A DNA stretch of 64,000 nucleotides from Spirodela intermedia. Lineage: Eukaryota > Streptophyta > Magnoliopsida > Alismatales > Araceae. Below are positions 1,205 through 62,127 of this stretch, in pieces. The DNA lies in contig LR746271.1 in the NCBI GenBank assembly GCA_902729315.2, forward strand, positions 4,608,001 to 4,672,000, written 5' to 3'. Under the pieces are notes generated by a model. The model saw only the letters and a list, made by a program, of their open reading frames with translations, was not told the DNA's origin and did not search any database. Numbering within the stretch: the stretch's first letter is position 1; the number at the start of each line of letters is the position of its first letter. The position numbers and the translations under genes are program-made.

Positions 1205-1247
1205 GTCCTACATCAGTTGTACGCCGATTTTTCGAGCGAATAGATAG
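1205..1247 (+). promoter_or_regulatory. snRNA-type USE + TATA module, LTR copy A (degenerate)
   Basis: GTCCTACATCA (USE-like, two differences from RTCCCACATCG) is followed by 24 bp and then ATAGATAG, a damaged TATA box. The spacing equals that in the other copies. It lies antisense to the LTR and is probably weaker than copies C2 and D. Confidence 0.4.
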
Positions 1248-6546: not shown

Positions 6547-9500
6547 TCAGGGCGCGTAGGCGGTGCTCCAGAACTGCCGTCGAGTGCCCCGGTCGAGGAT
6601 CCGGAGGAGAACCTGGTTGCTGGTGCACCGTGGTGTCTTGAACTGCCCCAAGGTTCCCCCAATGCCGACAAAGTAGTCCAGTATCTTCTTGAAGGTGCCC
6701 GTCTCCACCACCCGGAGCTCCAGCGGTCCGATGGAGCCATTGCGCCTCAACTCCACGTAGCCGCACTCGGTGAATGCCAGGTCCATCACTCGACAGCACT
6801 CCTGCAGCACATCTTCGTCCGCCTCCCCCTTCACCTCCCAGTAGACAACGTAGTGCCCTCGCTTCTGCGCGCCGTCTCCGACGATCGCGTGACTGGTAAA
6901 ATCGATCAGTTCTGACCTCGCTCGGGCCAGCAAGCGAGAGGCATTCTCCACGGCCAGCTGCAAGTCTTTCTCCGTGCTCCTGTCGACGTTCACGGTGAGG
7001 AAGACCTTCCTCCGGGAGACGAAGCTCAGTTGGGGGGCGCCCTTGTAGAAACCCCTTACCTCCACCACGTCTCCGAGCTTGTACCTGTACAGTCCTGCGA
7101 CATGGAGAAATCGAGATGAGTTGCTCAAGCATTGGATGATAATACCTGGATCATGGACTGTATGTGAGAGAGGCACAGGGGGGAGATACACATGCCATTA
7201 ACGTGAAAAAAGAGGTCGAGTGCAGATCACTGGATAATGACGTGTCTCTAGGGCTCATGCTGCTCGGGAAGACACCCACGCCATATGTCAGAGGCTCATC
7301 ACGCACAAAGGAACCTTCCACTAAGGCATTTAAAAGTGTTCAGTCTAAATCCTCAAATTAGTTTTCGGTGAGACGAAACGAGGAGATGCGTCGGCCAGGG
7401 GCCACGAGTGCTGGCTGTCACGTCTACATTAGTGAAGGCCGGGATGCGATTAAATACACAATGAACGAGGAGATTTGAGAATCATATCAGGCAACTGTGA
7501 GCAAGAAAGGTGCAAATCGGGATAGCAACACGGAAGTTGGGTAAAAATGATGTCGGAAAGAGAAGAAATGACGAGGGTGCATGAAACATCTTCTGGGAAC
7601 TTAAGGAATTCTTCTCTTGTACTGAGGCCGTTCGTTTCAAAATCCCTTATACGCTTGTCCTCACTGGAAGGACTCGCTAATAAGGCAATAAAGAATTCCC
7701 CTTAGTGTGGCCTATATGAAGTCAAACAAAGTCGAGGAGTCATGGCGCAGAGGGAGAGCAAAGAATCGATGACAGAAACAGGCGATCTCTCTCTCTCTCG
7801 GCCCCTCACCCACCGCCATCTACCCTTCGACATCCTCGTCGCCGCTAGTGTTAGGGGATGCATATCTAATGCACATTTTTTGAAGGTTGTCTGGGATGTC
7901 GATGGCAGAAAGAAACGGCTACCTTCGCCCATTTCCAAATCTTCAGATGGAGAGGTGCAGCCCAATTTCAGATTTTTCGTTCCCACTTTTGTTTCTGTGT
8001 GATATGAACTGTGGGGCGGTAAAACAGTGAATGACGGAGGAACGAGAATCGAACCTGTGAAGGTGGTGAGGACGAGCTCGTATTCCTGGCCCACCTTGAC
8101 CTTGCTCAGCGGCACTGGTTCCTCTTCCACGAAATCGTCGGCAACCCCAGGGTCCACGGCTCCTGATCCTTCAGTCCACCCCACTTGGTTCGCGTGCTGC
8201 TGCGGGTGCCTTCTCAGAGGTATGAACTCAAAGTAAGCGAGGGTAGGGATCACCGTGAAAGTGACCCTCTCAGGCGGATTGGATGGTTCCAGGTTCACAC
8301 CAATCCAGCTCTCAGAGGATCCATAATCGGCTCCCACAAGTGGGAGGCTTCCGGCGTAGTGCCCCAGTTTCTTCATATACGGCAGCATCGATCCGGTCAT
8401 GATGGAGTAGATATACTTGGCGTTGGGCCACAGCGCCGGGACTACGCCCTGCCAGTCTACCGCCTGGAGTTTCTTGCACGTGGATTCAATCCTGCGAGCG
8501 AGGGCCGGGTCGGGGGATACTACCTCGAGGACGGCCTTCCGGACGTTGGGGGAGGTGACTTTCACCTTGCTGAGGCCTCCGGTTTGAATGTCGTGGCAAA
8601 TCTCCGGCCACAGCTCCTCCAAGGCCGCGAAGGCCTGGACTATGCTGTAGGCAAAGGCGGAGGTGACGAACTCGACATGGTCACAGTGGACGAGGCCGAG
8701 GAGGAGGTGGCAGTAGGTAGTCTGTTTGTAGTCCCCGGCTAGGATCATCTCCCGCGGGCTGCAAGTGAAGGACTTGGTGGTTCTCTCCTTGATCTTGAAC
8801 TCCTCGCTTGCGTAGAAGTGGGTGGTGGCCGCGGCCACTGTGACGCCGCCTCTCGTCTGGTACCGCTCGCTGCGGTAGATGAATTCCAGAATCCTACCCC
8901 CTGCTCTGATGGGGAAGATCCTGGTCAACGCAACAGACAAGATAGATGATCAGATCGATTACGAGATGTGCGCTTGGACTTTCTAATGCTCTGGGTGGGG
9001 GGCGGGAAATGTTGCTTTTGGCCACAGACCTCGCTCTGTGGGCTGCTCCTAGCTTGAAGACCTGGAGGGTGGACTGCGCCATGAACCGCGTGAACGGGAC
9101 ATACTTCGGCCTTCCATCCGTTGTCCCAGAACTGCAGACAGGTAATCCGAAAACAGCCCTGTGAGTGCAGTGTAAATGGCACCACGGGGGCGGTAACCGG
9201 ATAGACCTACAGAACGCACAGCACTCGAAACCATTCTAGGACTGTTTAACGAAACCCTGGGACGGAATCGTCATCAAACAAGTGTTCCTATTTTTTCCTT
9301 CGCAGGCTCGCCGCAACCATAGACCTACGATCCTACAGTTACAATGGCAGCGCCGATGGTGGACAATAGATAGATATGACCGAATGAATAGAGGAGATTG
9401 AGATACCTGAGAGACATGGCGGCGATAGTATCCCTTGTGAGGATGGAGCTGGTGTCGCCGTCGACGATTCTCTGAAGATAAGGTTCAAAGTCTTCAGGGG

Positions 9501-9912
9501 AGGCGAGGGGCACCAGAGAGCTGTAGACTGTCTCTAGCTCCCCTAGCTCCAAGTCCTCACGGCGAAGGTCCTCCCCCAGCCACCTTCTCAGGTACTCCGT
9601 ACCTCGGTTGATCTCAATGATGCGCCTCAGCGTCTCTGTCTGCACGAAACCGGCCTTCTCCGCCACCCGGTCGAACCACCCCGTAATGTCGTCGTCCTGG
9701 GAGGTCGGTTCCCCCGTTCTCCCGTTCCCGTCACCAGCGAAAAATGCCTCTCTATGGCTGGTCATGCCGATCGTGGGTCGGCCGTCGTACTGGGCGGCCG
9801 GTTCCGCCGCTCCGTCGTGCACATCACCGGCTAAGGGTGCGTCACTCTGGCGCGTCGTGCACATCGCCATCGTCTGGGAGGATCGGTTCTGCCGCTGCCT
9901 GGTGCCCATCAC
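6547..9912 (-). CDS. GH3: GH3 acyl-acid amido synthetase, DFL2/GH3.10-like
   Basis: GH3 enzymes adenylate a plant hormone acid (jasmonate, auxin or benzoate) and transfer it to an amino acid, acting in the cytosol. Exons on the minus strand: 9912-9407, 9131-9030, 8920-8055, 7094-6547; all introns are GT-AG and phases join in frame (673 codons plus stop). ATP-binding motifs are present: SSGTTDGRPK (residues 169-178, split across the first intron), YGSSES (402-407) and YRYKLGDVV (494-502). Segments such as TTKSFTCSP, MTGSMLPY and FVEEEPVPLS resemble, from memory, the DFL2/GH3.10 branch of the JAR1 group, so a jasmonoyl- or related acyl-amido role is inferred. The family is usually ~590 aa. The first ~75 residues here are a repeat-derived extension, and Met50 (9765) is an alternative start giving 624 aa. 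No disabling lesion was seen. Confidence 0.88.
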
Positions 9913-9945
9913 TGGGGAACGGGGCGTCTCTCTGGTAGAGCGATT
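9720..9945 (-). repeat. Degenerate repeat encoding the GH3 N-terminus / 5' leader
   Basis: Motifs recur on the minus strand: GAxxxGD followed by GRTGEP or GAAEPA, then a Q/DD run. At least two occurrences are in the GH3 frame (around 9740 and 9820) and a third, around 9900, is in another frame (PSDGHQAAAEP). The units are imperfect and out of register. This explains why the protein is longer than its family at the N-terminus and makes the start codon uncertain. Confidence 0.55.
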
Positions 9946-9954
9946 CTCTAAGTG

Positions 9955-9985
9955 TCTCTGTCTCTCTCTCGCTCGCTCTCTCTTG
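9955..9985 (+). repeat. (CT)n tract upstream of GH3
   Basis: A TCTCTCTCTCGCTCGCTCTCTC-like run lies 45-75 bp upstream of the longest GH3 start. On the gene strand it is a GA-rich leader or promoter element, a common setting for GAGA-type sites in plant 5' regions. Confidence 0.6.
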
Positions 9986-10483
9986 TGCTTTCACACCCTC
10001 TTCCCGGCCCTTCTCTCGGTGATGTGCACCCAGGCACTTCGCTTCTATATTTGTAAGGAAAGAAGCCCACCAGTTGGGCGAAGGGAGGAGAGGAGGGGAA
10101 AAGAAAAATATCTTCCTGAACAAGCGGAGAAGCAAAGAGGAGGTCAATTCATGAGCCCCATTCACTCATCTCCCCGATTTCATTTCCTTTACTCATCCGA
10201 CCTACCGGACGATATTTTTTGGAACGGCAACTGCAAGTATTTTTTTTCGAGACACGCCGGCGATGTGGTTTAAACGACGGCTTAAGGATCCCGGGAGGAC
10301 CACCTCTCGTCCCGGGACCACGGCTCCTCTACTCCAGAATCGTACGATGCAATACAGACCTTACGAGGGCTTATCTGTTCTTCATGAATAGGCAAGGGAG
10401 CGAGAGCAGGGGACCATGAGAGGAAAGAGAGCGGACGAGAGAAACCCAGAGCAAGATGCATTCCCAACTCCTGAACCCTCCCT

Positions 10484-17235: not shown

Positions 17236-18984
17236 TTTTATATCTTTATTATCAAGAGTTAATAATTAATAAATAATATAGTTTTTAACCTTAAATCATG
17301 ATAAATAGAATTATATTTTTGTTAAAAGTGTGAAAGTGATTTTCAATTGATTAATGTAAATTTTTGGCTAATTATGTGATTTTATATGAATTTATATAAT
17401 TTTTCTAGTCTCATTTTTGAGATAAATAAAGAAAAATAAATTAAAATAAAAAAAATAGAAAAAGGAGGGACTTGTTGGCCAACCGGGCTATAAATAGGTC
17501 TGAAGTGCAATCGGGGGAAGTTGTGAGCAAGGGCTTGAGTAGTTATAGACTATTGGGGGCACACATGCACCACTCTCTTTTCACGTCACTAGTGGTTAGC
17601 TAATTGTGAGGCTAGGAGTGGTCATACACATGAGAGAAAAGGGCCCATTGCTTGAAAATATGATATTACTATATATTTACCCAAAACTTTGGCATACAAT
17701 CGATGTGAGACTAAACTTGTGTCACACCTTCCCCCCAAATAATTTAAAAGATTTTAATATCTAAACTACCCCTTAGTTATAATAGAGATAATACCCCTAT
17801 AATGTCACTGTATAAAGGTATTATAGTACTTACTTCAATTTCTCTCATGCAGACAGGTGATCGACACGAGTTCAAATCTATTAGAGTCAAAAATTGATAT
17901 TTTTATCTAATTAAATTACGACTTTCCTACAGATCGCCGATGAAAAATTAAGCCACTATAATTACTTGATCATTAACAAAAACCTAGTCGACATAATTCG
18001 TAGAACATTGTTACTAAAATTGTTGAATGATTCACGATAAAAAGATCATGAATCCATAAGTAAAACATTTATAATTAATCAATGAATAAACTATTGTCGG
18101 GAAAAGAACAATCTACTAGAAGACGAGTCATCACCTCTTGAGAATGTACTAAATGTAATAAAGAGCTTTCTCTTGCTATGTAGACTTGAAGATGAAGCTC
18201 CCTAACATGTGCCTCACTTCTATCTAGCTTCTCTCTATCGGATGATAGTCACTAGAGAGTCATAAAGTTGCTATTTTTTACTTCACTAAGTGACAACCAC
18301 CGAAGATGATTTGATGTCTATTTTGTTGATCTCTAGACTTCGCATGAAGATCTACAAATTACCCACATTGTTGTTGTCCAAAAAGAGCCTTCAAGGTTAT
18401 AAACACCATACGACAATCTTCTCGAACACTCATAATTCTAATACATCGTTAACGCATTACTGCTGCAATCTTAGAACTTTATTTTTCTACTTTTAACTTA
18501 ATTTTTATTTTATTAAGTAATAATTTATATGATTTAAATTTACTAAATTATCCTTCATTAAATTATGATTCTTTAGATTTTATAGATCTTAATTTGATCA
18601 ATTAAATCATTTGTAATCTCTTACATAAGAATCATCCGGTGGAACTCTATTTTCACCCGATTTACATTCGTTGGGTGATGACATCATTTTGATGTCTAGA
18701 CCCTTATTTTTCTTTTTCAGAAATTTTAAATATATTTTATTTTCATTTCTTATCTAAAATTTATAAAAAATCTTATTCTTTGAGTAAAATTTTAAAAAAT
18801 TACTTGATATTATATTACATCTCTATCATTGACTTAAAAATTTTGTCACAATTTTTAGAACTTTTATTGAATTATAATTGATATATTTTTTCAGAAATAC
18901 TTCTAAATATCTGAAAATTAGTATTTTCTAATTTTACAAATTTTAAATTTGCATGATTTGCTATAAAATGACCAAGTCACGTCA
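17236..18984 (+). mobile_element. Old gypsy LTR with adjoining primer-binding site
   Basis: A full-length but strongly decayed copy of the LTR family, with most CpG sites turned to TpG/CpA. It ends ..AAGTCACGTCA. It is followed at once by AATTTTGGGGCTGCTACTGGGGA, which resembles a mutated primer-binding site for tRNA-Asp (TGGCGCCGTTGCCGGGGA), the type used by Athila/Tat gypsy elements. It is therefore a 5' LTR rather than a solo LTR. Confidence 0.75.
17669..17711 (-). promoter_or_regulatory. snRNA-type USE + TATA module in old LTR
   Basis: On the minus strand GTCTCACATCG is followed by 24 bp and ATATATAG. The USE has one difference from RTCCCACATCG. Spacing is the same as in young copies despite heavy surrounding decay. 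Confidence 0.45.
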
Positions 18985-20996: not shown

Positions 20997-22024
20997 GTCT
21001 GTTTTTTTTTGCAAAATTTTAATTTTAAAACATGTGATAATTTTTAATTCGAAGAATATATATTTGTGAACTTAGTAGCCTATTAGGGACCTAAGAGAAA
21101 GATGTGATAATATTTTATACTATAGTGCTATTTTATGAATAGTTAAAGTCTAGTTAACTTAGGATTACTGAGTGTGAATGGGATGATAAGAATAAACAGA
21201 TGGTTCAATCAATCCAAGAATGATTGCTAGAAAAGAAACCCAATTTGAAGAATAGTTTACAAAGATTGTCTCCTTTTCATTTTAAAATTTATCATTAAAC
21301 TTTGATCAATAATTCCACAAAAATGGCAAAAAGTTCTTTGGTAAAAGAAGCTAGTATGAGTTTTACTAAATGATAAATTACTCTCTTCCCATATAAACAC
21401 AGAAAATATTTCAAAAACTATTTTATTTGAAATGTGATGTAATAATTAGAGTACAAGTCATTATTCCAATGCAGCCATCATATGACTTTTATAGTAAAAA
21501 TAAAACTACCAATTAGTTCAAATTTTATGGTTTCAAAGAAACCTTTATAGATGTGGAAAGTTATCTTATTAAATTTAATTTATATTATTTATGCTCACTG
21601 ATAAGTCTTCATTATCATGAGTTAATAATTAGTAAATAATATAGTTTTAGCCTTAACTCATGATAAATAGACTTATATTTGTGTTAAAGCATGAAAAGTG
21701 GTTTTCAGTTGATTAACGTGAATTTTTGGGTAATTATGTGATTTTATACGATTTTTACAGTCTTAGTTTTGAGATAAATGAAGAACAAGAAATAAAAATA
21801 AAAATATTGCAAAATGGGCGGATCCGCCGGCCGGCCAGGCCCGCAAGCGGGTCGGAAGCGCAGTCGGGGGGGGAGTAGCCGCGAGCAGGGGCTCGAGCGG
21901 CTTGCTTGGATCGATAGGGGCACGTGTGCGCCACTCCCCTTCCACGTCACCGGTGGTCAGCCGGCTGTGGGGCAAGGAAGGGTCGTACACGCGAGAGGAC
22001 TTTGCCTAAAAAGCTAACTTTACT

Positions 22025-22065
22025 GTATATTCGCCTGAATAATCCGCCCACAACCGATGTGGGAC
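22025..22065 (-). promoter_or_regulatory. snRNA-type USE + TATA module, LTR copy B
   Basis: On the minus strand GTCCCACATCG, a perfect match to the plant USE consensus RTCCCACATCG, is followed by 24 bp and ATATAC. The spacing fits the Pol III class of plant snRNA promoters (about 24 bp) rather than the Pol II class (about 33-34 bp). Downstream GC-rich sequence runs to a T4 at 21811-21814. Confidence 0.55.
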
Positions 22066-22583
22066 TAAATCCACCTTGTAAGGGGCGGGCGACCGCCGCG
22101 GGTTCGAATCCTCCCAGAGTCAAAATTCATATATTTTTAACTGATTATCGCGACTTTCCTGCAGATCGCCGGTGAAGGATTAAGCAACCGGAATCGCTGG
22201 ATCATCGGCGAAAATCTCGTCAACGCGATTTGCGGAGCATTGCTACTAAAATTTCTGAACGATTCGCGATTAAAGGATCGCAATCCATCGAGTAAATCAT
22301 CTCCGATTGATCGACGAACAAGTTGTCATCGGGAAGAGGACGATCCGCCGGGAGACCAGTCGCCACCTCCTGAGAGCGTACCAGATGCGATGAAGAGCCT
22401 CCTCTTGCTGCGCGGACCTGAGGATGAAGCTCCCTAACACGCGCCTCACCTCCATCCAGCCCCTCTCCGTCGGGTGACAGCCGCCGGAGAGCCGCAAAGT
22501 CGCCGTTTTTCTGCTCCGCCGGGTGACAGCCGCCGGAGACGATTCGACGACCCACTTCATTGGTCTCTAGACTTCGCGAGAAG

Positions 22584-23012
22584 ATCTAGAGATTGCCCAC
22601 GTCGTCTTTGTCCAAGGAGAGCCTTCGAGGCCGTGGACACTGCACGACGAACCCTCCCGAACGCTCAGGATTCCGGTGCATCGCCGACGCGTCGCCGTCG
22701 CGACGCCGGAACTCTGTTTTCCTACTTTATCTAGAGATTGCCCACGTCGTCTTTGTCCAAGGAGAGCCTTCGAGGCCGTGGACACTGCACGACGACCCTC
22801 CCGAACGCTCAGGATTCCGGTGCATCGCCGACGCGTCGCCGTCGCGACGCCGGAACTTTGTTTTCCTACTTTATCTAGAGATTGCCCACGTCGTCTTTGT
22901 CCAAGGAGAGCCTTCGAGGCCGTGGACACTGCACGACGATCCTCCCGAACGCTCAGGATTCCGGTGCATCGCCGACGCATCGCCGTCGCGACGCCGGAAC
23001 TCTGTTTTCCTG
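22584..23012 (+). repeat. 144-bp minisatellite inside LTR copy B (3 units)
   Basis: Units start at 22584, 22729 and 22873 with ATCTAGAGATTGCCCACG and are nearly identical. Copy C has two units (61285, 61429); copies A and D have one. All frames over it stay open because the unit length is a multiple of three. Confidence 0.92.
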
Positions 23013-24466
23013 CTTTCAATTTAATTTACGCTTCATTTAGTGATACTTTGTTGATTTTAATTAACCAAACTATACTTCGTTCAATTACGATTCTTCCGGC
23101 TTTTACAGATCTTAATTTGATTAATTGAGTCGTCTGTAATCGCCTACGTAAGAATCGTCGGGCGGAACTCTGTTTCCGCTTGATTCGCGTTCGCCGGGCA
23201 CTGACGTCATCCTGACATCCGCACCCTTATTTCCTTTTTTTTTGTGAATTTTAAATATATTTCCTTTTTATTTCCTAGTATAAAATTCCTAAGAAAATCG
23301 TACTCATTGAGAAAAATTCTGAATAATTACCAGATATTATATTACATCCCTGTGATCGACCTGGAAAATTACCGCTTTTTTTGGAATTTTTATTGAATTA
23401 TAATTGATATATTTATTTAGAAATACTTCTAAATATCCGAAAATTTGTATTTTCTAGTTTTATAAATTTTATATTTGCGTGATTTAACATACAATGACTG
23501 AGTCACGTCACTCACCAACAACTAACCATTACTAATATTCAAATAAATATTCATTTAATTTATCATAAATGGGTTACATTTATTAGAAAAAAAATTTATA
23601 AGAGAGGACTAAAATGCAATGTAAATCAACTTAGTAGAATGATACAATGGTTTGTGACCTTTGAAGCACCATTGACTCCCCTCTTCCCCCCCCCCCCTTC
23701 TTGTCCCCCAAATAAATGTTTTATCCTTGAAAGCTCGATACAAAAGTGATGAAATTTTGGCTAAATTTGGGAAGCCTATATGATGGGTTTATTAACTAGA
23801 TGATTTCATGTACATAAACTATGCTTTTTTTGTGGAAATTATTTATGCATTAATAGAATATGGTGATACTGAAAAATTGTCTAAGAATTATATGGAGCAC
23901 TAGAAGGACATTTAGGGTATGATACCATAACACCTAGTAGAAGAATACTATTTTTTACTTCAATTAGAGAAGGAAGTAGAAGATCATGTACGAAGATGTA
24001 AATAGATCAAGTTAATAAAATGCAATGTCTAAACATTACTCTAGATAACAGTACCAATTCCAATTAAGCCTTGGGTTGACATTTAATTTCATATTGAGAT
24101 TGCAATTTACATAGCATTCCAATTAGGCGATGTCTACAACTTCAAAAGATCTCTTTAGACATAGACAACTTGGACATTCACTTGATCTCATTTGGAAGTC
24201 TAAAAAATGGTAGTAGAAGTTGAACTAATTAAAAAATGGTAAAATAAAGTTCTAGCATTGCAATGATGATGCAACGATGATCTGTCAGAATCCTAAGCAT
24301 TTGAGAGGATTGTTGTGCAGTATCCATTACCTTAAAAGCTCTCCTTAGACAAAGATGACATAGGCAATCTTTAGATCTTCTTACAAAGTCTAAAGATTGA
24401 TAATTATAAATTATTAATTGCATTTATATTTGAATATCTTATATATAGATTGATAATATAATTTAA

Positions 24467-26079: not shown

Positions 26080-26122
26080 GTCTCACATCCGTTATACGTA
26101 GAATTTTAGGATAAATATATAG
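26080..26122 (+). promoter_or_regulatory. USE + TATA module in decayed 3' LTR
   Basis: GTCTCACATCC, 24-bp spacer, ATATATAG. The element core and spacing are kept although the rest of the LTR is heavily mutated. Confidence 0.4.
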
Positions 26123-30130: not shown

Positions 30131-32021
30131 TGATGTGACTTTTCTTTTGTTATATAATAAATCACATAAATTTAAAATTTATAAAACTAGAAAATACTAA
30201 TTTTTGAATTTTTAAAAATATTTAAAAATAAATAAACAAATTATAATTCAATAAAAGGTTCTAAAAAATAGTGAGAAATTTCTAAGTTGAGCACAAGGAT
30301 TAAGTTATGATTTTTAGAGTAAATAATGACTACAAAATATATTTAAAAATTAACTAAAAAGAGAAATAAGGGTGTAGATGTCAAGATGACATTAGTGCCT
30401 TGTGTAATACGATTTGGGTGAAAATAAGGTTCAACCCATTAATTCTTACATAAGCGATTACAAACAATTTAGTAGGTTAAATTAAGATTTTTTAAAAATC
30501 AAAAGAATCATAATTGAATGAAGAAGATATTAAAAACTTTAAATCATAAAAAATATTATTAAATTAAGTGAAAATTAAGTTTAAAGTAGAGAAGACTGAG
30601 TTCCAACCTCGCGATAACAATTGCTGAAATTTTGTATGTTCAAGAGGATCATCAACCAATGTCTATGGCCCCAAAAAAATCTCCTTGGACATAGATGACC
30701 TAGGCATTCACTAGATCTTCTTTCAAAGTTCAAAAAATGATAATAAAAGTTAAATTAGTGAAAAATGATAAAATAGAGTTCTAATGTCATAATAGTGATA
30801 CGTCAACAATGGATCGAAATCCTGAGCTTTAGAAGGATTGTTGTGCAATGTTTATAATCTGAAAGGCTCTCCTTAGATAAGGACAACATGAACAATTTCT
30901 TAATCTTCTTACAAAATCTAGAAATCAATGAAGTGAGTCATTGAATCATCTTTAATGGGTGTCACCCAATGGAGCAAAAAAATGATGATTTTATAGCTCT
31001 CCAGCAGCTATCATTCAATGAAGATGAGTTGGATGAAGGTGCAACGTGTTTTAGGGAGCTTCACCTTGAAGTCCACACAACAAGAGGAGGCTCTTCTAAA
31101 TATTTGGTATGCTCTCAAGAGGTGATGACTCATTTGCTAACAAATCATCTTCTTCTCAATGACGGCTTATTTGTTGATCAATCATAGATAATTTACTCAT
31201 TGAATTTGTGATCTTTTTATCTAAAATCATTCAAAAATTTTAGTAACAATACTCCATAAATTTCATTAATAAGATTTTCGCTAATGATTGAGTAATTTTG
31301 ACAACTTAATCTTTTACCAATAATTTGTAAGAAAATCATGATTTAATTAGATAAAAATATGAGTTTTGACCATAATAAGATTCAAACCCTCGTTGGTCAC
31401 CCACTTATATAAGAAAGTAAAATAAGTATGCAAATATTCTTATAAAGTGACATTATATAAGTATATACTTGTAATAAGTAAGAGGTAATTTAGGTATTAA
31501 AAATCATAAATTTTTTTAGAGAAGTCGTGACTACCAACTTAGTCCTACATCAATTATATATTGAATTTTAAAATGAATATATAGTAATACGAGATTTAGT
31601 AATCAATGTGTCTTATTTTCACATGTACAACTACTCTTTACCCCACACCCAATTAGTCACTAGTGATGTAAAAGGAAAGTGATACACAAGTGTCTTATAC
31701 TAGTTTATCTTTAGCCACTTGAGCCTTTACTCACGACTCTTCTCTACTATGTTTCTAACTTACTTGTGGGCCCAATTGGCCAGCAAGTTCCTTTATTTTT
31801 CTACCTTTTTATTTTATTTTATTTTTCTTAATTTATCTCAAAAAAATGATTATAAAATTTATATAAATTTATATAAAATCACATAATTAACCAAAAATTC
31901 AGATTAACTAACTAAAAATCATTTTTCATAATTTAGCACAAATATAAGTCTATTTATCATGATTTAAAGCTAAAATATTATTATTAATTAATTATTAACT
32001 CATGATAATGAAGATTTATCA
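30131..32021 (-). mobile_element. Decayed 5' LTR of the gypsy element
   Basis: Full-length LTR on the minus strand, ending AAGTCACATCA next to the internal region. Its outer end (TGATAAATCTTCATT on the minus strand) lies 92 bp from the PreP stop codon. The flanks AAATT and ATAGG do not match, as expected when the other flank belongs to a truncated 3' LTR. CpG content is largely lost. Confidence 0.8.
31542..31584 (+). promoter_or_regulatory. USE + TATA module in decayed 5' LTR
   Basis: GTCCTACATCA, 24-bp spacer, ATATATAG; antisense to the LTR as in the other copies. Confidence 0.4.
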
Positions 32022-39253: not shown

Positions 39254-42200
39254 CATTAAAATAACTAATACTCATTACACCCCAACTACAATCAGCACCC
39301 CCTTGTGGTCTTTCCTCTAGCCACCCTTACAAAAAGTTTTCTTCCCATGTTCGGTAAGTGCCAGAGCTACTTGAGGAAATAAATTTCCAATGACCCAGAT
39401 GTCTTAACCAAATTTTCTCCATCTTTGACATTGTTTCCATTATTCTGTGCAATCTTGCACGCCCTTGATACTAGAGAAGCCAAATGATTTTCAAAGGCCA
39501 ATGAACTAGAGACAAATATAACAATAATATGTAATCGCATCCTATATATTATTCTATATTCCATAGATCTATAACAAATCAATGATTCGAATCATCTAAA
39601 AACACTGAATAAAAGATACCAAGCCATCCTTATTTAATCTATGCTTTTGAAGAGGGAATAACTTAAATGTAACAGGTCTTGGAGACCACTCTGAAAAAGA
39701 GCCAAAAAATAATAACAAACATTTGACTGGAAAACTACGACCAACATTAAATTTGATCAGTTTACCAGGAAAAATCAAAGCGACTTATTCCATAAAAGAA
39801 ATGATTCTAGATCATAAAAGATCATTTAGAACGATTTTTTGGGTTTCTGCGGTTTTCCACTAATCTTTTCCTTACTACCACTCGTTTATCCTCATATTAT
39901 GACACCAGGTTCCTACACCTATCTTGGTGTTTACAAGATAAACAACTGTGACAAAGATCATTTAGACAGTCATTACACACTAGAGATATGAAATTCATTC
40001 CTGTACTTTATAAAGTTAAAAAAAACCTGACAATAATAGAGAACAATATTAATAATTGTAACTAATACTAGGCTAAATAGATCCTCCACCCGTTCCCCCA
40101 TCGCTTTACCATGGACAATGACATGAAAGCATGGATCTGCTTTCTCTCTCACAGATGATGTGAAAGGGTAAATTGATATGCCCCCAGTCTTTCTTCCAAC
40201 AAGCTGGTTCAGCTGAACGAAGTCAAGATCTCTTGTTCCCATTTCAAGCAAAGATTGACTGGAAAACACCATTAAGCATCAAGCATTAAGTACAATGATA
40301 TTTTGAGTACAAGATCAAAATTAATAGAATGATATTTTGAGAGTACAATGCAAATGGAAAACACTTGGAGTTTAACTCTTCTCGGAAAATAGTAGCATTA
40401 ACTGAAACATTTCTCACCAAAATAATGGTATCAGTTGAAGAAGATCTTGCCTTAAATGGCACAAATCAAATACAACCTCTAAGTATAAAACATCATTTGT
40501 AAAAAGATCATGTTGCAAAACTTTCACTCCATTGACTTCTGCAATTTGGAGTCACCAAAAATGTGACAGCATGTTAATAACCCTAGTCAGAATCAAATCC
40601 TTGGTAATAGGAATGCATAAGCACGAGAAAGGAACTAAAAGTATTTATAACATCAACTCCAAAATCGTGACAATAAGTTCTGCATTATCATCTCCTATTT
40701 TCTCAAGAAGAGATGGACAAACATTTATTTACAATCATATCTTCAAGCACTAAGGTTGGAACCAGCAACTTTATTTTAGCTCAGTCGGAATTTGTACAAG
40801 TTTCCTGGGGATATCATCAAGAGAAAGATTGGGAACACATTTCAAAGCCTCTGGTGGGTCTGGTGTTTCCTGCCTCAAACGCAGCTCTCGAGTACCACAT
40901 ACAAGCTCCACAAGATCCTCTTGTGTCATACTTGATTTCACCTTTTCAAGGATTTGTCTTTCAACTGCCTTATCTTGAGATTCTTTATTAGGATCAGGCT
41001 GAGAAAGAAAAACATCTAAGAAGCATACAAACCAAACTGAGATGTTTATTCTTAAATTATTCATGAGTCTATATACCTGCATTTCAATTGTAACACAATG
41101 AGCGTTATTAAGGATCAATTTCTCTATTAATGGACAAAAGACAGCCTTAGAACCTTCTGCAACTATCTAGGCTTTCAAAGACTATAAGGGCTTCTCATAT
41201 TTTAAAGGTTCAAAAGGATCCTTGTCATACATCCAATTTGCCTACAAAAAAAAATAACAAGATGAAATTTGAAGTAGAAGAATACGATTTATATTGCACA
41301 TCATGCCTAAAGAGAATTTCTTACAATGGAACGAAGCATCAAAGATAGGCCTCGGGGGAATGACCCTGTATTATTTTCCAAATCTACAGCTTCAGAACCA
41401 AACCCTTCTGCTGCTAAATTTTTCAGTGTGCTCATGATTAGTTCCTCTACTTTTTGAACGTCATCCTCAGATACACCTTTCAACCTAGTGCTGAACTGAG
41501 GTTGAAGTAATTCATCTTCCACTCCATTGCCAACAATTGCATCTCTTAGTCTACTTTCAAGTAAGATCCTTCTAAGTGGAGAAGCTGGTGTTCCCAATAA
41601 AAGGTGATCCAGAAAGCAGAGTGCGAGTTCAGTTTCCAAATCTAATGTCTTAGTAGATAGCACCCAACTCAGGTAGACCATGTGTTTTTTTTATTGTCAT
41701 CACCATCACTAACAGGATATTTCACTATTACCCTTACTGGCGTTAAAAAGAGCTTTTGAGGTTCAATTCTCGACTCATTAGAAACAGGGCTCTTATCATA
41801 CTGATCAAGATAGGCTGCATAAGATAGAAAAAATATCAAGGCCGTCATTAGCTGCCAAAAATCTGTACATCAATCAATAAATGCTAGTGAGATAACTCCC
41901 ATTACTAAGTATTCTACTGCCACAATTCTGGCATGGATTAAATTTATTTATTATCATCCAATAAATGCTCATCTAAGCATTAGAATATTCCCTTGCAATA
42001 TAAGAATATTGTAGACACAAAACATCAGGATGATAGTACATGGAGAACACACCAACAAGTTAATCCTGGTTTTTTAGGACACTTCATGGCCTCTTGATCT
42101 GCTTTTCGTTTTCAGAATATGAAAATAAATGAATTGATACCTATAACTCAATATTTTCTCGTTATCAAAACATGCTCCATTTACAGAAAAAAATTGCGCT

Positions 42201-43377: not shown

Positions 43378-46218
43378 TGTTAGACCTTGTGGAAGGGAAA
43401 AAGGAACTTCTGTTCACAACATATGAGGGAAAAAAGAAATAACTTCAAGATTAGTTTACATTGAGACAAGGGTCTATTATTTATAATAGATCAATGAGAG
43501 AAGGTTCTAGACATAGAACCTCACATTCCCAGACACACAAGTGATGTTCATGTGCTTCTTTAAGTGAAGCATGTGATACACCTCACCCAACTGCTAACGC
43601 AGTATTTACACTATATTTCAACACTCCCCTTAAGCTGGTGAGTGGATATCATCTATTCCCGGATTGGAAAGCATTTGTTCTAGTTGAGTCTTAGAGACAC
43701 CTTTTGTTAGCAAATCAAGTAGTTGATGTTGAGCAGAGATGTAGGGAATACATATTTCTTTAGACTCCAAGTTTTCTTTGGTAATGTGATGGTCTATCTC
43801 CACTTGCTTTGTGTGATCATGCTGAATGGGATTATGCACAAGATTAATTGTAGATTTATTGTCACAATAGAACTTCATAGGACAAGAAATAAGAATCTTT
43901 TAGGTTAATGAGTAAAATCTTCACCCAAAGTAGTTCACATATTCTATGTTCAAATGCCCTGAATGTTGATTCTGCACTAGAGCGAGCAACAACATTCTGT
44001 TTTTTTACTATTTCAAGTAATCAAATTTCTTCTTAGAAACATCATAAGACCTGAAGGTGACCGACAATTTAAAGGAGAACTAACATAGTTTGCATCAATA
44101 TACACCTCAATTGTTAGGTTACCACCACATTTGAAGAGAATGCCTTTTCTAGGGGTTCCCTTTAAGTAGTGTAACACCTGATATACAACATGAAGATGAG
44201 ATTTAGTTGACTTATGCATGAACTAACTTAAGAGACCAAGTACATAAGAGATCTCATGCCTAGTGTGTGTGAGATATAGCAATCGTCCAATAAGTTGTTG
44301 ATACATTTTGCAATCAATATACTCCCCTTCACGAACACTAAGTTTGTGGTTAGGATTAAGGGGGGTGATAGCTGGTTTGCAGGCAGATTTTTCAGTATCT
44401 TTTAGAAGATCTGCCACATACTTTCGTTGAGAGATGAATATGCCCTTAGAAGAATGAGCCACCTCAATGCCTAGAAAATATTTAAAATAATCCAAAGTTT
44501 TGATATCAAATTTGTTGACAAGATACTTGCTCAAATTTCCTTGTTCAATGTCATTACTTTCAGTAATTATAATGTCGTCAACATACACTAGGAGTATAGA
44601 AACTCCCCCTGATGAAGTATGTTTGAAAAATAATGTGTGTGAAGAAAATCAAATTTTTGTATGATAGTAGAAAATCTCCCAAACCATGTGCATGGAGATT
44701 GTTTCAGTCTATAAAAAGACTTTCTTAGTCTGCAAATAATGTTAGAAGATAAATTTCCTCCATAACTAGGTGGATAATACATATATACTCCATTAATAAG
44801 GTCTCCATGAAGAAAGACATTTTTCACATTATATTGCTGGATATTCCAACTAAAAATAGCAGTCAATGGCAAAATAATTTTGACTATGTTCATTTTTGTC
44901 ACAAGAGAAAAAATTTCATGGTATTCAATTCTATAAACTTGTGTATATCCTTTAGGTACGAGTATGGCCTTGTACCTTTCAACTGATCTATTAGGATTGT
45001 ATTTTATAGAATAAATTCATTTACAGTCAACTGCCCATTTATCCTTAAGGCGAGGTACAAGCTCCCATGTATTGTTTCTTTCAAGAACATGCATCTCATC
45101 ATCCATGACTTATTTTTACTCTTTCTTAGAGAGAGCTTCTAAAATATTAACTGAAATGGTAATATTATCGAAGGTAGCAAGGAAGGTTTTATAAAATGAA
45201 GAAACTTTATGATAAGAAATAAAGTTCACTGAAGGTTAAAATAGGTATTTTGTACAAGCTTGTGAAGATTTTCTGAGGGCAATAGGAAGGTCATTGGATT
45301 GGGGACATAGAATTTCCTGCAATGATAAATGTGGTTTCTTAGTCATTGGTTAAGGCTAGTTTGGAGTCTTGGGCTGATCCAGAATTTGAGGTCCTGGAAC
45401 AAACTGACCAAATCTGATTTTTTTAGGAAGTGGATCAGGAAGAGATGGACTTTGGTCAGGCACATGAATTTGTAGAATAATTTGACCTAGAGGAGAAGAA
45501 ACTCTTTCTGGAGAAAAATCAAGTAAAGGCAGAAATGGCAAATATGTGTCTTGAGAGGTTTTCTAGAAATAAAATATAGATTCATGAAAGGTAACATCCA
45601 TCGTTGTAAGGAATTTTTGAGTTGGTGGATGACAACAGCAATACCCTTTTTAAGTTGTTAAATATTTAAAAAACATATATTTGAAGGATCTTAGATCTAA
45701 TTTATCTTTAGTTGGATTATGATTATGAATGAATGAAACACATCTGAATATGCGAGGCTCTAATGAGATATGGAGATGATTAAGAGGGAAATAAGAAGCT
45801 AACTTCTCCATAGGACTTAAGAAATCTAAGGTTCTAGTGGGAAGATGATTTATTAGATGAGTTTTTGTTAAGAGAGGTTCACCCCAAAAAATTTTGGGTG
45901 CACTCGCTTGAAACAAGAGTGAACGTGCAATCTCCAAGAGGTGTCAATTTTTTCTTTCTGCCAATCCGTATTGCTGAGGAGTGTAGACACATGAAGACTC
46001 AAGTATGATACCCTTAGCTTGAAGAAAAGAATTCAGATCATTGCTAAAGTATTCCTTAGAATTATTTAACCTGAATTTCATTATAGGATTATCAAATTGG
46101 GTTTTAATAACTGCACAAAAACGTTTCAATACAATTGAAACTTGTGATTTCTGCTTAAGAAGAAAGACTCACATGCAATAGGTGCAATCATCTACAAAGG
46201 TAACAAACTATTTATTAC
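43378..46218 (-). mobile_element. Ty1/copia element truncated in integrase
   Basis: On the minus strand: integrase core (46218-45944, with ESSCVYTPQQYGLAERKN), integrase C-terminus (45937-45650), linker, reverse transcriptase (45100-44223; YVDDI intact at 44588-44574, then FDIKTLDYFKYFLGIEVAHS), RNase H (44219-43630, ending DDIHSPA), polypurine tract and 3' LTR (43623-43378, TGTTGAAA to TAACA). Stops and frameshifts are present. The 5' part is missing because a gypsy LTR begins at 46219 in mid-integrase. Confidence 0.85.
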
Positions 46219-47382: not shown

Positions 47383-47425
47383 GTCCCACATCAGTTGTAC
47401 GCCGAGTTTTAATGCGAATATATAC
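47383..47425 (+). promoter_or_regulatory. snRNA-type USE + TATA module, LTR copy D
   Basis: GTCCCACATCA (one mismatch to RTCCCACATCG), 24-bp spacer, ATATATAC. This is a well-preserved example of the antisense module. Confidence 0.55.
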
Positions 47426-52149: not shown

Positions 52150-53350
52150 CAGCGTAACCTCAGCTTGCATCCAGTGAGTAATTCAACGGTCACGTGGTTT
52201 AAGTAGGAAAGTTGATAATCTGCCACGTCATTAATAATTATTTAACTGCTGAATAATATGCTTTTTTCAAGAAGGTCAACGTCATATGTCATTTAAGATG
52301 AGATTGGGCAGAAAAAAAAATCTCAAAACCTTTAAGAACACGTCTCAATGCGAGTTTGACTTTTATGAAGCGGTGCCATACTAAGTAACATTAGATAAAA
52401 ATTATTGCCAGCCCAATATTTTAGAAATGATTTTTTCTAAATATAAAAAAAAGGTGGAGGACAACATGCACAAAGTCCTTTAAATATTTAAAAATAAATA
52501 TAAATAGTGTCAAATGAGAGAAGATAAGTCATGAAAGAAGAAAAGGAAAACGTTGAATAGATGAGGCATAATATAATACATCATCTTTCAATCTACAACT
52601 AAAGATATAGAGAACATTTGAATCTATAATTATCACAATAATGCCTCTCAATCTACAAGGATCACAACGACTCCTTTGAATCTACCAAGCTGCGTAATTT
52701 GCCAAAGCCAAGTTAACACTCAAAGTCAATGCTTGATTGTATTCATTTATTCAGCTGTGCCCCCCAAAGGGTGTTGATTCATTGCCAATTGATGTAGTAC
52801 TTGGTCCAATCCACACAACTAAGTCATTAAAAGGTGATGCCATCAGGTAGGAAAGTCAATAAAAGGCGATGTTAGTAACAATTTACTACTCTAATTAATG
52901 GCATTTGCACAGTATAATGGCATTAACTCTAATTAATCCAAAGTGGGGTATTAATTGATAAGCCAATGATATGCTATTTTCAAGAAAATCAAAGTCATAA
53001 AGCATGGAAGATGAGAACGGGGAGAACCTTTTTCCCCTAAATATTTTTAAAAACTCCTCATTTCAAGTATAACTTGTTTGAATAAGTGTGCTATTAAGCA
53101 ATATTAGATAAAAATGACGCTACAATAAAGTTCTGAATGTTGAAAACCTAATAATTTAGAGTCTTTTTTCTATTATTAAAATTAATTTGAAGAAATAAAT
53201 ATATAAAGTTTTTTTTTATGTTTAAATATTAATTTAAATATTTGTGATAAATGGCATACATTATGTCATCAAGAAGAAAAATGAAACTTTGAATCTATGA
53301 GACATAATATAATAATATATCTTTGACCGTAAAATTAAAGATTAGGCAAC
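52150..53350. repeat. Diverged ~650-750-bp tandem repeat, no gene
   Basis: Shared landmarks occur twice in order: GTAGGAAAGT (52204, 52849), ATATGCT..TTTTCAAGAA (52257, 52971), ACATTAGATAAAAAT or ATATTAGATAAAAAT (52388, 53100), GAGGCATAATATAATA or GAGACATAATATAATA (52562, 53299). Spacing varies, so the units have many indels. AT-rich and non-coding. Confidence 0.5.
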
Positions 53351-53819
53351 CTTTGAATTGCGATTCAAACTATGTATTTCCTTTTGCTAAGTTCTTCATC
53401 GACACAAGAGCCCAGATATCCAATTATCGTTTCATTGAGAAGTATCATCCATCAACTTTGGACCCTCTATTCAAATATTTTATAAGTACAATCATCTTTG
53501 CATTCTCCCTATGCATGAAAATCTTCAATTGTCTTCTCCTAGAGCATTGATTGTGGAGGCACAATCTTTGAGGGTCCAAAAGATTGAACTTTTTCTCTCA
53601 TATCTTTTTCAAATCGGATCTGAAATCTAAAAACATTAAAACTCTTTAAATTGCACCATAAATCTAAACGAAATGGATCTATTTAAAATAAGGTATGAAT
53701 CTTAAATTGGCTGTTGTCTGTCTGCTTTGCTGTAGATCCCATTTCTTGGCCTAATAGCCTGTGAAATCATACAAACTAGCATCTCGCATGAACGCCAAGT
53801 GCTAATATATCATTTATCT

Positions 53820-56663: not shown

Positions 56664-57798
56664 TAGAATATATATTTGTGAACTTAGTAGCCTATTAGGG
56701 ACCCAAGAGAAAGATGTGATAATATTTTATACTATAGTGCTATTTTAGGAATAGTTAAAGTCTAGTTAACTTAGGATTACTCAGTGTGAATGGGATGATA
56801 AGAATAAATAGATGGTTCAATCCATCCAAGAATGATTGCTAGAAAAGAAACCCAATTTGAAGAATAGTTTACAAAGATTGTCTCCTTTTCATTTTAAAAT
56901 TTATCTCTAAACTTTGATCAATAATTCCACAAAAATGGCAAAACGTTCTTTGGTAAAGGAAGCTACTATGAGTTTTACTAAATGATAAATTACTCTCTTC
57001 CCATATAAACACATCAAATATTTCAAAAACTATTTTATTTGAAATGTGATGTAATAATTAGAGTGCAAGTCATTATTCCAATGCAGCCATCATATGACTT
57101 TTATAGTAAAAATAAAACTACCAATTAGTTCAAATTTTATGGTTTCAAAGAAACCTTTACAGATGTGGAAAACTATCTTATTAAATTTAATTTATATTAT
57201 TTATGCTCACCAACAACTAACCATTACTAATATTCAAATAAATATTCATTTAATTCATTATAAATGGGTTACATTTATTAGAAAATCTTTTTATAAGAGA
57301 GGACTCAAATGCAATGTAAATCAACTTAGTAGAATGATACAATGGTTTGTGACCTTTGAAGCACCACTGACTCCCCTCTCCCCCCCCCAAATAAATATTT
57401 TATCCTTGAAAGCTCGATACAAAAGTGATGAAATTTTGGCTAAATTTGGGAAGCCTATATGATGGGTTTATTAACTAGATGATTTCATGTACATAAACTA
57501 TGCTTTTTTTGTTGAAATTATTTATGCATTAATAGAAATATGGTGATATTGAAAAATTGTCTAAGAATTATATGGAGCACTAGAAGGACATTTAGGGTAT
57601 GATACCATAACAACTAGTAGAAGAATACTATTTTTCACTTCAATTAGAGAAGGAAGTAGAAGATCATGTACGAAGATGTAAATAGATCAAGTTAATAAAA
57701 TGCAATGTCTAAACATTACTCTAGATAACAGTACCAATTCCAATTAGGCCTTGGGTTGACATTTAATTTCATATTGAGATTGCAACTTACATAGCATA
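56664..57798. repeat. Segmental duplicate (empty site) of 21054-24116
   Basis: Nearly identical to the flanks of LTR copy B and uninterrupted across the single CTCAC at 57206-57210. It includes a shorter poly-C run at about 57381. It documents the pre-insertion state. Confidence 0.92.
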
Positions 57799-59649: not shown

Positions 59650-59791
59650 CCAATGCTCCCATGCAGGATGATGAGGTCAGCGCGAGCCGACGTTGTGCTG
59701 GAGCGAAACAGTGGGCGGCGAACAGCCAATATCAGCCGGAGAACCAGAGCGGGGACTAGACGTTCGTATGGTTTCCACAACGAAGGTCGTG
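59650..59791 (+). promoter_or_regulatory. PreP 5' flank, separated from its gene by an LTR
   Basis: This GC-richer stretch matches, in inverted orientation, sequence just upstream of the minus-strand PreP exon 1 (about 51460-51600; shared pieces include GAAACAGTGGGCGGC-like and CAGAGCGGG). The homology continues at 62066, on the other side of LTR copy C. It is therefore the interrupted 5' flank or promoter of the plus-strand PreP copy. Confidence 0.6.
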
Positions 59792-60297
59792 TGATAAGTC
59801 TTCATTATCATGAGTTAATAATTAGTAAATAATATAGTTTTAGCCTTAACTCATGATAAATAGACTTATATTTGTGTTAAAGCATGAAAAGTGGTTTTCA
59901 GTTGATTAACGTGAATTTTTGGGTAATTATGTGATTTTATACGATTTTTACAGTCTTAGTTTTGAGATAAAACGAAGAACAAGAAATAAAAATAAAAATA
60001 TTGCAAAATGGGGGGATCCGCCGGCCAGCCGAGCCCGCAAGCGGGTCGGAAGCGCAGTCGGGGAGTAGCCGCGAGCAGGGGCTCGAGCGGCTTGCTCGGA
60101 TCGATAGGGGCACGTGTGCGCCACTCCCCTTCCACGTCACCGGTGGTAAGCCGGCTGTGGGGCAAGGAGTGGTCGTACACGCGAGAGGACTTTGCCTAGA
60201 AAGCTAACTTTACTATATAATCGCCCGAATAATCCGCGCACAACCAATGTGGGACTAAATCCACCTTGTTCAGGGGCGGGCGACCGCCGCGGGTTCT
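59792..60297 (+). repeat. Tandem partial copy of the LTR 5' end
   Basis: Nearly identical to 60298-60805. The junction falls within the B-box-like motif (GGGTTC joined to TGATAAG). Since one TCGTG pair encloses both copies, the duplication arose within the element or was present at insertion. Confidence 0.85.
60213..60255 (-). promoter_or_regulatory. USE + TATA module in the partial LTR copy
   Basis: On the minus strand GTCCCACATTG, 24-bp spacer, TTATATAG; one USE change. Confidence 0.4.
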
Positions 60298-60715
60298 GAT
60301 AAGTCTTCATTATCATGAGTTAATAATTAGTAAATAATATAGTTTTAGCCTTAACTCATGATAAATAGACTTATATTTGTGTTAAAGCATGAAAAGTGGT
60401 TTTCAGTTGATTAACGTGAATTTTTGGGTAATTATGTGATTTTATACGATTTTTACAGTGTTAGTTTTGAGATAAATGAAGAACAAGAAATAAAAATAAA
60501 AATAATGCAAAATGGGGGGACCCGCCGGCCAGCCGGGCCCGCAAGCGGGTCGGAAGCGCAGTCGGGGAGTAGCCGCGAGCAGGGGCTCGAGCAGCTTGCT
60601 TGGATCGACAGGGACACGTGTGCGCCATTCCCCTTCCACGTCACCGGTGGTCAGCCGGCTGTGGGGCAAGGAGTGGTCGTACACGCGAGAGGACTTTGCC
60701 TAGAAACTAACTTTA

Positions 60716-60758
60716 CTATATATTCGCCCGAATAATCCGCGCACAACCGATGTGGGAC
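60716..60758 (-). promoter_or_regulatory. snRNA-type USE + TATA module, LTR copy C2
   Basis: On the minus strand GTCCCACATCG (perfect), 24-bp spacer, ATATATAG. This is the best-preserved example. The downstream T4 is at 60512-60509. Confidence 0.6.
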
Positions 60759-61284
60759 TAAACCCGCGTCACACCTTGTTTAGGGCCGGGCGACCGCCGC
60801 GGGTTCGAATCCTCCCAGAGTCAAAATTCATATATTTTTAACTGATTATCGCGACTTTCCTGCAGATCGCCGGTGAAGGATTAAGCAACTGGAATCGCTG
60901 GATCATCGGCGAAAATCTCGTCAACGCGATTCGCGGAGCATTGCTACTAAAATTTCTGAACGATTCGCGATAAAAGGATCGCAATCCATCGAGTAAATCA
61001 TCTCCGATTGATCGACGAACAAGCCGTCGTCGGGAAGAGGACGATCCGCCGGGAGACCAGTCGCCACCTCCTGAGAGCGTACCAGATGCGATGAAGAGCC
61101 TCCTCTTGCTGCGCGGACCTGAGGATGAAGCTCCCTAACACGCGCCTCACCTCCATCCAGCCCCTCTCCGTCGGGTGACAGCCGCCGGAGAGCCGCAAAG
61201 TCGCCGTTTTTCCGCTCCGCCGGGTGACAGCCGCCGGAGACGATTCGACGACCCACTTCATTGGTCTCTAGACTTCGCGAGAAG

Positions 61285-61572
61285 ATCTAGAGATTGCCCA
61301 CGTCGTCTTTGTCCAAGGAGAGCCTTCGAGGCCGTGGACACTGCACGACGACCCTCCCGAACGCTCAGGATTCCGGTGCATCGCCGACGCGTCGCCGTCG
61401 CGACGCCGGAACTCTGTTTTCCTGCTTTATCTAGAGATTGCCCACGTCGTCTTTGTCCAAGGAGAGCCTTTGAGGCCGTGGACACTGCACGACGATCCTC
61501 CCGAACGATCAGGATTCCGGTGCATCGCCGACGCATCGCCGTCGCGACGCCGGAACTCTATTTTCCTGCTTT
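61285..61572 (+). repeat. 144-bp minisatellite in LTR copy C (2 units)
   Basis: Units begin at 61285 and 61429 and are nearly identical to those at 22584-23012. Confidence 0.9.
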
Positions 61573-62127
61573 CAATTTAATTTACGCTTCATTTAGTGAT
61601 ACTTTGTTGATTTTTATTTACCAAACTATACTTCGTTCAACTACGATTCTTCCGGCTTTTACATATCTTAATTTGATTAATTGAGTCGTCTGTAATCGCC
61701 TACGTAAGAATCGCCGGGCAGAACTCTATTTCCGCCTGATTCGCGTTCGCCGGGCGCTGACATCATCCTGACGTCCTCACCCTTATTTCCTTTTTTTTGT
61801 GAATTTTAAATATATTTCCTTTTTATTTCCTAGTATAAAATTCGTAAGAAAATTGTACTCATTGAGAAAAATTCTGAATAATTACCAGATATTATATTAC
61901 ATCTCTGTGATCGACCTGGAAAATTACCACTATTTTTGAGATTTTTATTGAATTATAATTGATCTATTTATTTTGAAATACTTCTAAATATCCAAAAATT
62001 CGTATTTTCTAGTTTTATAAATTTTAAATTTGCGTGATTTAACATACAACGACTGAGTCACGTCATCGTGCAAAAGTGATAGCTCAGTAGAGATTCCTCA
62101 AAGCACAGTTCCTGCCTTGCCGGTCCT

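Follow-up and report, generated by a model that had tools for sequence, protein, structure and literature searches.

Abundant long terminal repeats (LTRs) of an Athila-type Ty3/gypsy retrotransposon in Spirodela intermedia carry, on their antisense strand, a plant snRNA upstream sequence element (USE) followed by a TATA box at a spacing typical of the Pol III-type small RNA genes of the same genome. We read this pair as an antisense type-3, i.e., gene-external and snRNA-type, Pol III promoter, an interpretation to which we assign a probability of roughly 0.5, with activity and function inferred from sequence. Among the explanations weighed below it is the likeliest, and the observation behind it is stronger than the initial annotation of this DNA could show.

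USE–TATA modules and their host element

The window, i.e., the whole 64-kb stretch of DNA analyzed, contains eight USE–TATA modules, all of which were found where the initial annotation had placed them and antisense to the LTR. In one of them, the USE GTCCCACATCG (60748–60758, minus strand) is an exact match to the plant snRNA element RTCCCACATCG, and the TATA box TATATA (60717–60722, minus strand) starts 25 bp past it. A second module (60213–60255, minus strand; USE at 60245–60255 with one mismatch, TATATA at 60214–60219) lies in a tandem partial copy of the LTR. The remaining six are located at 22024–22065 (minus; exact USE, TATACA) within a solo LTR, at 17669–17711 (minus) and 47383–47425 (plus), both with one USE mismatch and TATATA, at 26080–26122 and 31542–31584 (both plus; two USE mismatches, TATATA), and at 1205–1247 (plus; two USE mismatches, TAGATA). 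The match to RTCCCACATCG originally claimed for the modules is exact in two of the eight and loose in the other six, three with one mismatch and three with two, and TATATA occurs in six. Their spacing, given earlier as exactly 24 bp, is indeed constant, but the best TATA match follows the USE at 25 bp in all eight modules and at 24 bp only if the preceding A is joined to the box. A relaxed scan of the window (USE with up to two mismatches, TATA box with up to one, spacing of 23–27 bp) returned nine places, eight of which are the modules above, whereas 20 single-base shuffles within 500-bp blocks averaged 1.45. The eight modules are homologous copies of one LTR family, not independent ones.

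Before the LTR at 60297–62065 (plus strand; TGATAAG...CACGTCA) lies an incomplete second copy of this LTR end, arranged in tandem and likewise equipped with a module (59792–60296, plus strand). Both are included in a solo LTR (59792–62065) bounded by the 5-bp target site duplication (TSD) TCGTG at 59787–59791 and 62066–62070. The solo LTR at 21599–23510 has the TSD CTCAC, and its unoccupied duplicate site lies at 57206–57210; TG...CA ends with 5-bp TSDs are therefore present in two window copies. Copies with an LTR at both ends were found on genome contigs C11 and C13, the latter being shorter. In both, TGGCGCCGTTGCCGGGGA, which we take to be the Athila-type primer-binding site, directly follows the 5' LTR, GGGGGGTG immediately precedes the 3' LTR, and the LTR sense strand contains long open frames. 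Pfam detects gag, reverse transcriptase, RNase H and integrase domains between the LTRs of the C11 copy, together with an aspartyl protease match below cut-off (21.5 of 28.2 bits). Judged by these features, the element is an Athila-type Ty3/gypsy retrotransposon with gag and pol. Since the LTR sense strand begins with TGATAAG, and since the primer-binding site and long frame of the C11 and C13 copies run opposite to the module, the USE–TATA pair is antisense; the gypsy assignment and the orientation first proposed are both borne out, the former by the gag/pol domains of the C11 copy.

Several further features were recorded alongside. A 144-bp unit within the LTR forms a tandem array of three units in one LTR copy and of two units in a second (22584–23016, 61285–61572), a tandem duplication of ~449 bp at 1340–2231 covers the LTR end plus flank, and LTR-end matches recur in pairs ~5,717 bp apart on C2 (about 8.48–8.83 Mb), which suggests segmental duplication. 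The window also contains a marginal Rfam match to 5.8S rRNA (53290–53431, minus strand; 44 bits at a cut-off of 42) and, at 7702–9987, 40771–41687 and 44223–45013 (minus strand), GH3 gene fragments, M16 peptidase exons and copia-type reverse transcriptase (RVT_2) fragments.

Spacing class and genome-wide abundance

The USE–TATA spacing was calibrated on snRNA and 7SL genes of the same genome. U6 has nine matches over the cut-off; two of eight examined upstream regions contain a USE, with the TATA box at 27 (TATAAT) and 23 bp and the gene start at 51 bp in both cases. A USE is also present in one of two U3 genes scoring above the cut-off, with TATAGA at 23 bp and the start at 52 bp, and in both 7SL matches (one mismatch each), with TATAGA at 29 bp and the start at 52 bp; the U3 and 7SL spacings were counted by hand to TATAGA, automated one-mismatch scoring having given 21 and 27. 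For U2, four of the five best matches (of nine over the cut-off) carry a USE (exact in one, with a single mismatch in three) at distances of 31, 30, 33 and 30 bp to the TATA box and 64, 63, 66 and 63 bp to the start. The ranges of the Pol III class and of U2 almost meet for the TATA box (23–29 against 30–33 bp, with 7SL at 29 and U2 at 30), but not for the start (51–52 against 63–66 bp). By comparison with these genes, the LTR spacing of 25 bp belongs to the Pol III class, which upholds the earlier view of the spacing as a plant Pol III signature. The identical 11-base USE is also found upstream of two U6 genes and one U3 gene here, which we count in favor of the Pol III reading. RGCCCR, a monocot-specific upstream motif, is present in none of 35 LTR copies and in one of eight snRNA/7SL genes, six of which have only 53–67 bp of upstream sequence. 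The two 7SL matches are arranged tail to tail, ~355 bp apart (C10:6466838–6467806).

Genome-wide, the pattern TCCCACATCG-N20-28-TATATA has 896 exact matches (411 + 485), compared with none for the reversed-pattern control, and the first 30 matches listed, all on C1 and C2, lie within this LTR without exception (blastn). At Pol II spacing, the pattern RTCCCACATCG-N29-34-TATAWA, which uses a slightly different box, has 11 matches (two overlapping), including one U2 gene, and its control has one. The 30-base stretch at the LTR 5' end occurs 3,253 times when up to three mismatches are allowed. Searches for snRNA genes by USE–TATA pattern are flooded with LTR matches in this genome.

A pattern built to avoid the main family gave 46 matches, 17 of which were fetched. 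By eye, 16 of these are LTRs of the two lineages described in the next section, 15 belonging to lineage B (with L097 being a truncated copy) and one, L092, to lineage A. Rfam at gathering score has no match in the 17 loci, and a known RNA downstream was dropped as a candidate for them. The remaining locus, L089 (C3:2334006–2334456), resembles neither LTR lineage, and its USE–TATA pair makes it a possible unannotated Pol III gene. Among potential relatives in IMG/VR, 13 stretches matched the RT-query pattern and none was confirmed; the motif-scan matches, among those listed, are taken for chance.

Preservation between and within LTR lineages

For comparison among copies, 60 stretches were hand-picked among the best-matching places listed, out of 1,511 matches to a sampling pattern located ~70–150 bp from the USE and 40–120 bp from the TATA box. 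A USE-like anchor, defined by up to four mismatches to the USE and therefore leaning towards it, was found in 59 of the 60 (L143 was dropped, as was L057 from a set of 30). The 59 comprise 35 stretches of lineage A and 24 of lineage B, whose spacer and sense downstream region are unrelated to those of lineage A. TATAWA stands at 25 bp in 29 of the 35 lineage-A stretches and in 24 of 29 further lineage-A copies, at 25 or 26 bp in 21 of the 24 lineage-B stretches and at 24/26 bp in one more of these. Between the lineages (64 A and 24 B rows), the mean match amounts to 0.82 for the USE, 0.83 for the TATA box and 0.87 for the TTTA before the USE, compared with 0.32 or 0.30, depending on the anchor, for the spacer, for which 0.25 is expected from composition. 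Past the TATA box, the match is 0.43 at 1–16 bp and 0.31 at 17–38 bp. Anchoring on the USE favors the USE in this comparison, and a free MAFFT alignment served as counter-check. It placed the USE of all 59 copies in one column, where the match is 0.82. Outside the sampling anchor, the median is 0.46 and five of 220 windows score higher than the USE; with the anchor included, the number rises to 29 of 279, which we count against the Pol III reading. The preservation of USE and TATA box that the initial annotation proposed to check is supported between lineages in the copies sampled. In this one genome, to which the preservation tests apply, we read the retention of USE and TATA box, while the spacer diverged to near background, as a footprint. 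Together with the antisense polarity of the lineage-B TATA box described below, this retention is the strongest of the results.

The same retention might reflect the ordinary core promoter from which Pol II transcribes the LTR sense strand, with the near-palindromic TATA box and the block CGATGTGGGACTAAA representing the start and beginning of R and with the likeness to a USE being coincidental. R has to be preserved for strand transfer in LTR elements, the block follows the sense TATA box at ~30 bp, the distance at which a start is expected, and the near-palindromic box of lineage A reads TATAWA in the sense direction in 28 of 35 and 21 of 29 copies, compared with 31 of 35 and 24 of 29 in the antisense direction. 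In lineage B, however, TATAWA is antisense in 22 of 24 copies and sense in two of 24, which disfavors a sense Pol II promoter as the sole cause of preservation, and an exact 11-bp USE, spaced as in the genome's own Pol III genes, is unexpected of a start site. On balance, we consider this explanation unlikely.

Within lineage A (44 rows), conservation is 0.861 for the USE and 0.719 for the spacer. Before base-class matching, 419 of 994 windows over 1.1 kb of LTR, in a comparison that left out L001 and two partial copies, are better conserved than the USE. Once columns are matched by class (CpG, other C/G, A/T), the USE is equalled or surpassed by 57 of 303 local 11-bp windows and the TATA box by 140 of 323 local windows. 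The spacer length is altered in two of 44 copies, and many other 25-bp tiles are equally well kept. Selection visible inside one lineage was accordingly not found, and the proposed comparison of USE and TATA box with flanking LTR shows no clear excess inside lineage A. The statement that spacing and core survive the loss of most CpGs from a copy is not supported as worded and constitutes weak evidence, because the USE lies only slightly above its class-matched surroundings and the spacer length is unexceptional.

On the sense strand, GGTTCGAATCC at 60808–60818 (plus), followed by TTTTT at 60834–60838, is a tRNA-type B-box sequence. With up to three mismatches, a B box occurs on the sense strand of all 35 lineage-A stretches, mostly 53–70 or 151–166 bp and once 24 bp past the USE block, and its distance to the TATA box differs by ~105–110 bp between subfamilies. 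The fetched part of 22 of the 24 lineage-B stretches (L136 counted as B) contains none within three mismatches, and the other two have loose matches at +15 and +152. By eye, GTGTGATCYAGYRGTA, which to us resembles a tRNA A box, recurs ~40 bp past the USE block on the sense strand of lineage B (L101–L160). An antisense USE–TATA pair combined with a sense B box throughout lineage A would fit a module that binds snRNA/Pol III factors mainly as a landing site, be it a boundary, open chromatin or a silencing shelter, and yields little RNA. The general lack of B boxes in lineage B speaks against such a role, as does the finding that the lineage-A B box is no better conserved than its surroundings (158 of 303 class-matched local windows are as good), and we rate it as quite improbable.

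We find it highly doubtful that an snRNA-type promoter was once captured and is now neutral, being kept merely through the youth of its copies. The unremarkable conservation within lineage A would suit such a relic, as would the proportion of sampled copies in which an exact USE and TATAWA are left (13 of 29 and nine of 35 in the lineage-A sets, six of 24 in lineage B). Between lineages, however, spacer and flanks are near background, whereas USE and TATA box are not. A tRNA-type Pol III gene on the LTR sense strand, composed of TATA, CAA, B box and T-run, appears barely credible, since GGTTCGAATCC, CAACC at 60744–60748 and the TTTTT behind the B box agree with it, but no good A box was seen, ARAGORN reports no tRNA in the window, the B box shifts by the ~105–110 bp mentioned above, and the USE is left unexplained.

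Predicted antisense RNA and comparison with known systems

If the module acts as an antisense Pol III promoter, transcription would start at 60695–60696 (minus strand), 51 or 52 bases past the USE as in U6, U3 and 7SL here, and produce an RNA of ~185–200 nt (60498–60696, minus strand) that ends at the T4 of 60509–60512 or the T5 of 60498–60502. A downstream T-run, the terminator expected of a type-3 Pol III promoter, is present in the LTR copies. The first T5 past the predicted start lies at a median of 194 nt and at 179–213 nt in 43 of 44 lineage-A rows, and no T4 occurs within the first 170 nt in 37 of 44 (the counts use 44 of 47 rows, three having no anchor, and L001 is the window copy at 60297 again). 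Selection against early T4 was not found, with 10 T4 against nine A4 in the first 170 nt of the 44 rows. Among the 17 fetched loci, 11 have no T4 before 247–286 nt; L084 has a T4 at 42 and a T5 at 279, L096 a T4 at 7 and a T5 at 261, and the first T4 is at 9 in L085, at 83 in the truncated copy L097, at 126 in L089, which is not an LTR, and at 182 in the lineage-A copy L092.

An imperfect hairpin (60615–60687, minus strand) is predicted ~10–80 nt from the RNA start, with support that is modest and strand-neutral, the sense strand folding here too. Folding z-scores are −0.92 antisense and +0.26 sense for the 193-nt stretch and range from about −4 to +1 on both strands for the 91-nt hairpin piece (40 shuffles each; anchor in 42 of 47 A-set rows and six of 17 others). 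Paired changes number 25 against 16.8 in shuffles for the antisense and 25 against 16.3 for the sense strand, with relatedness uncontrolled. A strongly selected RNA structure was dropped as a candidate on these figures, both strands scoring alike in the paired changes. An Rfam scan of the window at gathering score revealed no known RNA family downstream of the module.

In plant snRNA genes, SNAPc binds the USE and TFIIIB/TBP binds the TATA box. On the LTR, SNAPc and TFIIIB/TBP might likewise occupy the USE and TATA box, and Pol III would then start 51–52 bases past the USE, transcribe back across U3 and terminate in the T-runs of the LTR's AT-rich end. The product would be an antisense U3 RNA of ~190 nt, or about 250–290 nt in lineage B, complementary to the U3 at the 3' end of the element's genomic RNA, and we propose antisense control of the element as its possible use. 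More speculatively, and with the odds clearly against it, the LTRs of this gag/pol retrotransposon could encode a Pol III antisense hairpin RNA as a small-RNA gene regulating either the RNA of the element itself or the host, in the manner of a plant equivalent to the U3 miRNA cassette of foamy viruses. An active module would be the first type-3 Pol III promoter in an LTR known to us, placed antisense and within a lineage accounting for several per cent of the genome. It would connect the biology of LTRs with SNAPc/Pol III and with control by antisense or small RNAs, and provide hundreds of dispersed Pol III starts open to co-option as small-RNA genes.

We know of no described LTR with an snRNA-type promoter, and a literature search covering few subscription papers found none, neither in Athila nor in other LTRs; searching by motif yielded primers and unrelated papers only. 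LTRs of other plants may also carry GTCCCACATCGG. The Athila lineage, which accounts for 7.23% of the S. intermedia 8410 assembly (PMC7645714), has the same primer-binding site, gag and pol domains and 5-bp target duplications as the present element. Published Pol III promoters in LTRs are of 5S type (Cassandra, Ajax) or tRNA type (Helenus) and reside in short non-autonomous elements, with Cassandra being called the sole validated case (PMC10886601). The initial annotation rightly named Cassandra as a known parallel, but it is not the only one, the Helenus and Ajax TRIMs having been published as well (same source). Like the present LTR, these TRIMp3 elements have Pol III-type promoter sequence inside a retrotransposon LTR. 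Their promoters are gene-internal and 5S- or tRNA-derived, whereas the one proposed here would be gene-external, type-3 and antisense; nor is the present element short and non-autonomous, the C11 copy having gag and pol domains. Scans of the window for 5S (Rfam, gathering score) and tRNA (ARAGORN) found neither, and lineage A has a lone B box.

Plant U6, U3 and 7SL promoters share the USE, the TATA box and the 23–29 bp class with the LTR module, which differs in lying within an LTR, in its hundreds of copies and in that no known RNA family follows it in the window. Outside snRNA genes, USE promoters occur at the plant telomerase RNA (PMC6765143) and, as a USE-type promoter, at interface-induced MIRNA loci of Cuscuta campestris (PMC10226582). 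The latter resemble the LTR module in combining a USE promoter with a hairpin downstream, but the Cuscuta miRNAs have been measured, whereas the LTR hairpin is predicted with modest support. Of dicot 70-bp promoters with USE and TATA box, most but not all are functional, changes outside the two elements are tolerated, and USE point mutants can be dead, with the last USE base being essential in some cases (PMC12268498). Many LTR copies have a USE that ends in ACATCA or ACATTG, which counts against the Pol III reading. Foamy viruses are animal retroviruses, whereas the present element is a plant LTR retrotransposon. The promoter of foamy virus miRNAs is not known to be of the plant USE kind. Pol III-directed miRNAs are encoded in the U3 of bovine foamy virus (PMC7693620) and reportedly in the LTR of simian foamy virus (PMC7104284), and the feature that the LTR module would have in common with them is a Pol III-directed hairpin RNA produced from an LTR.
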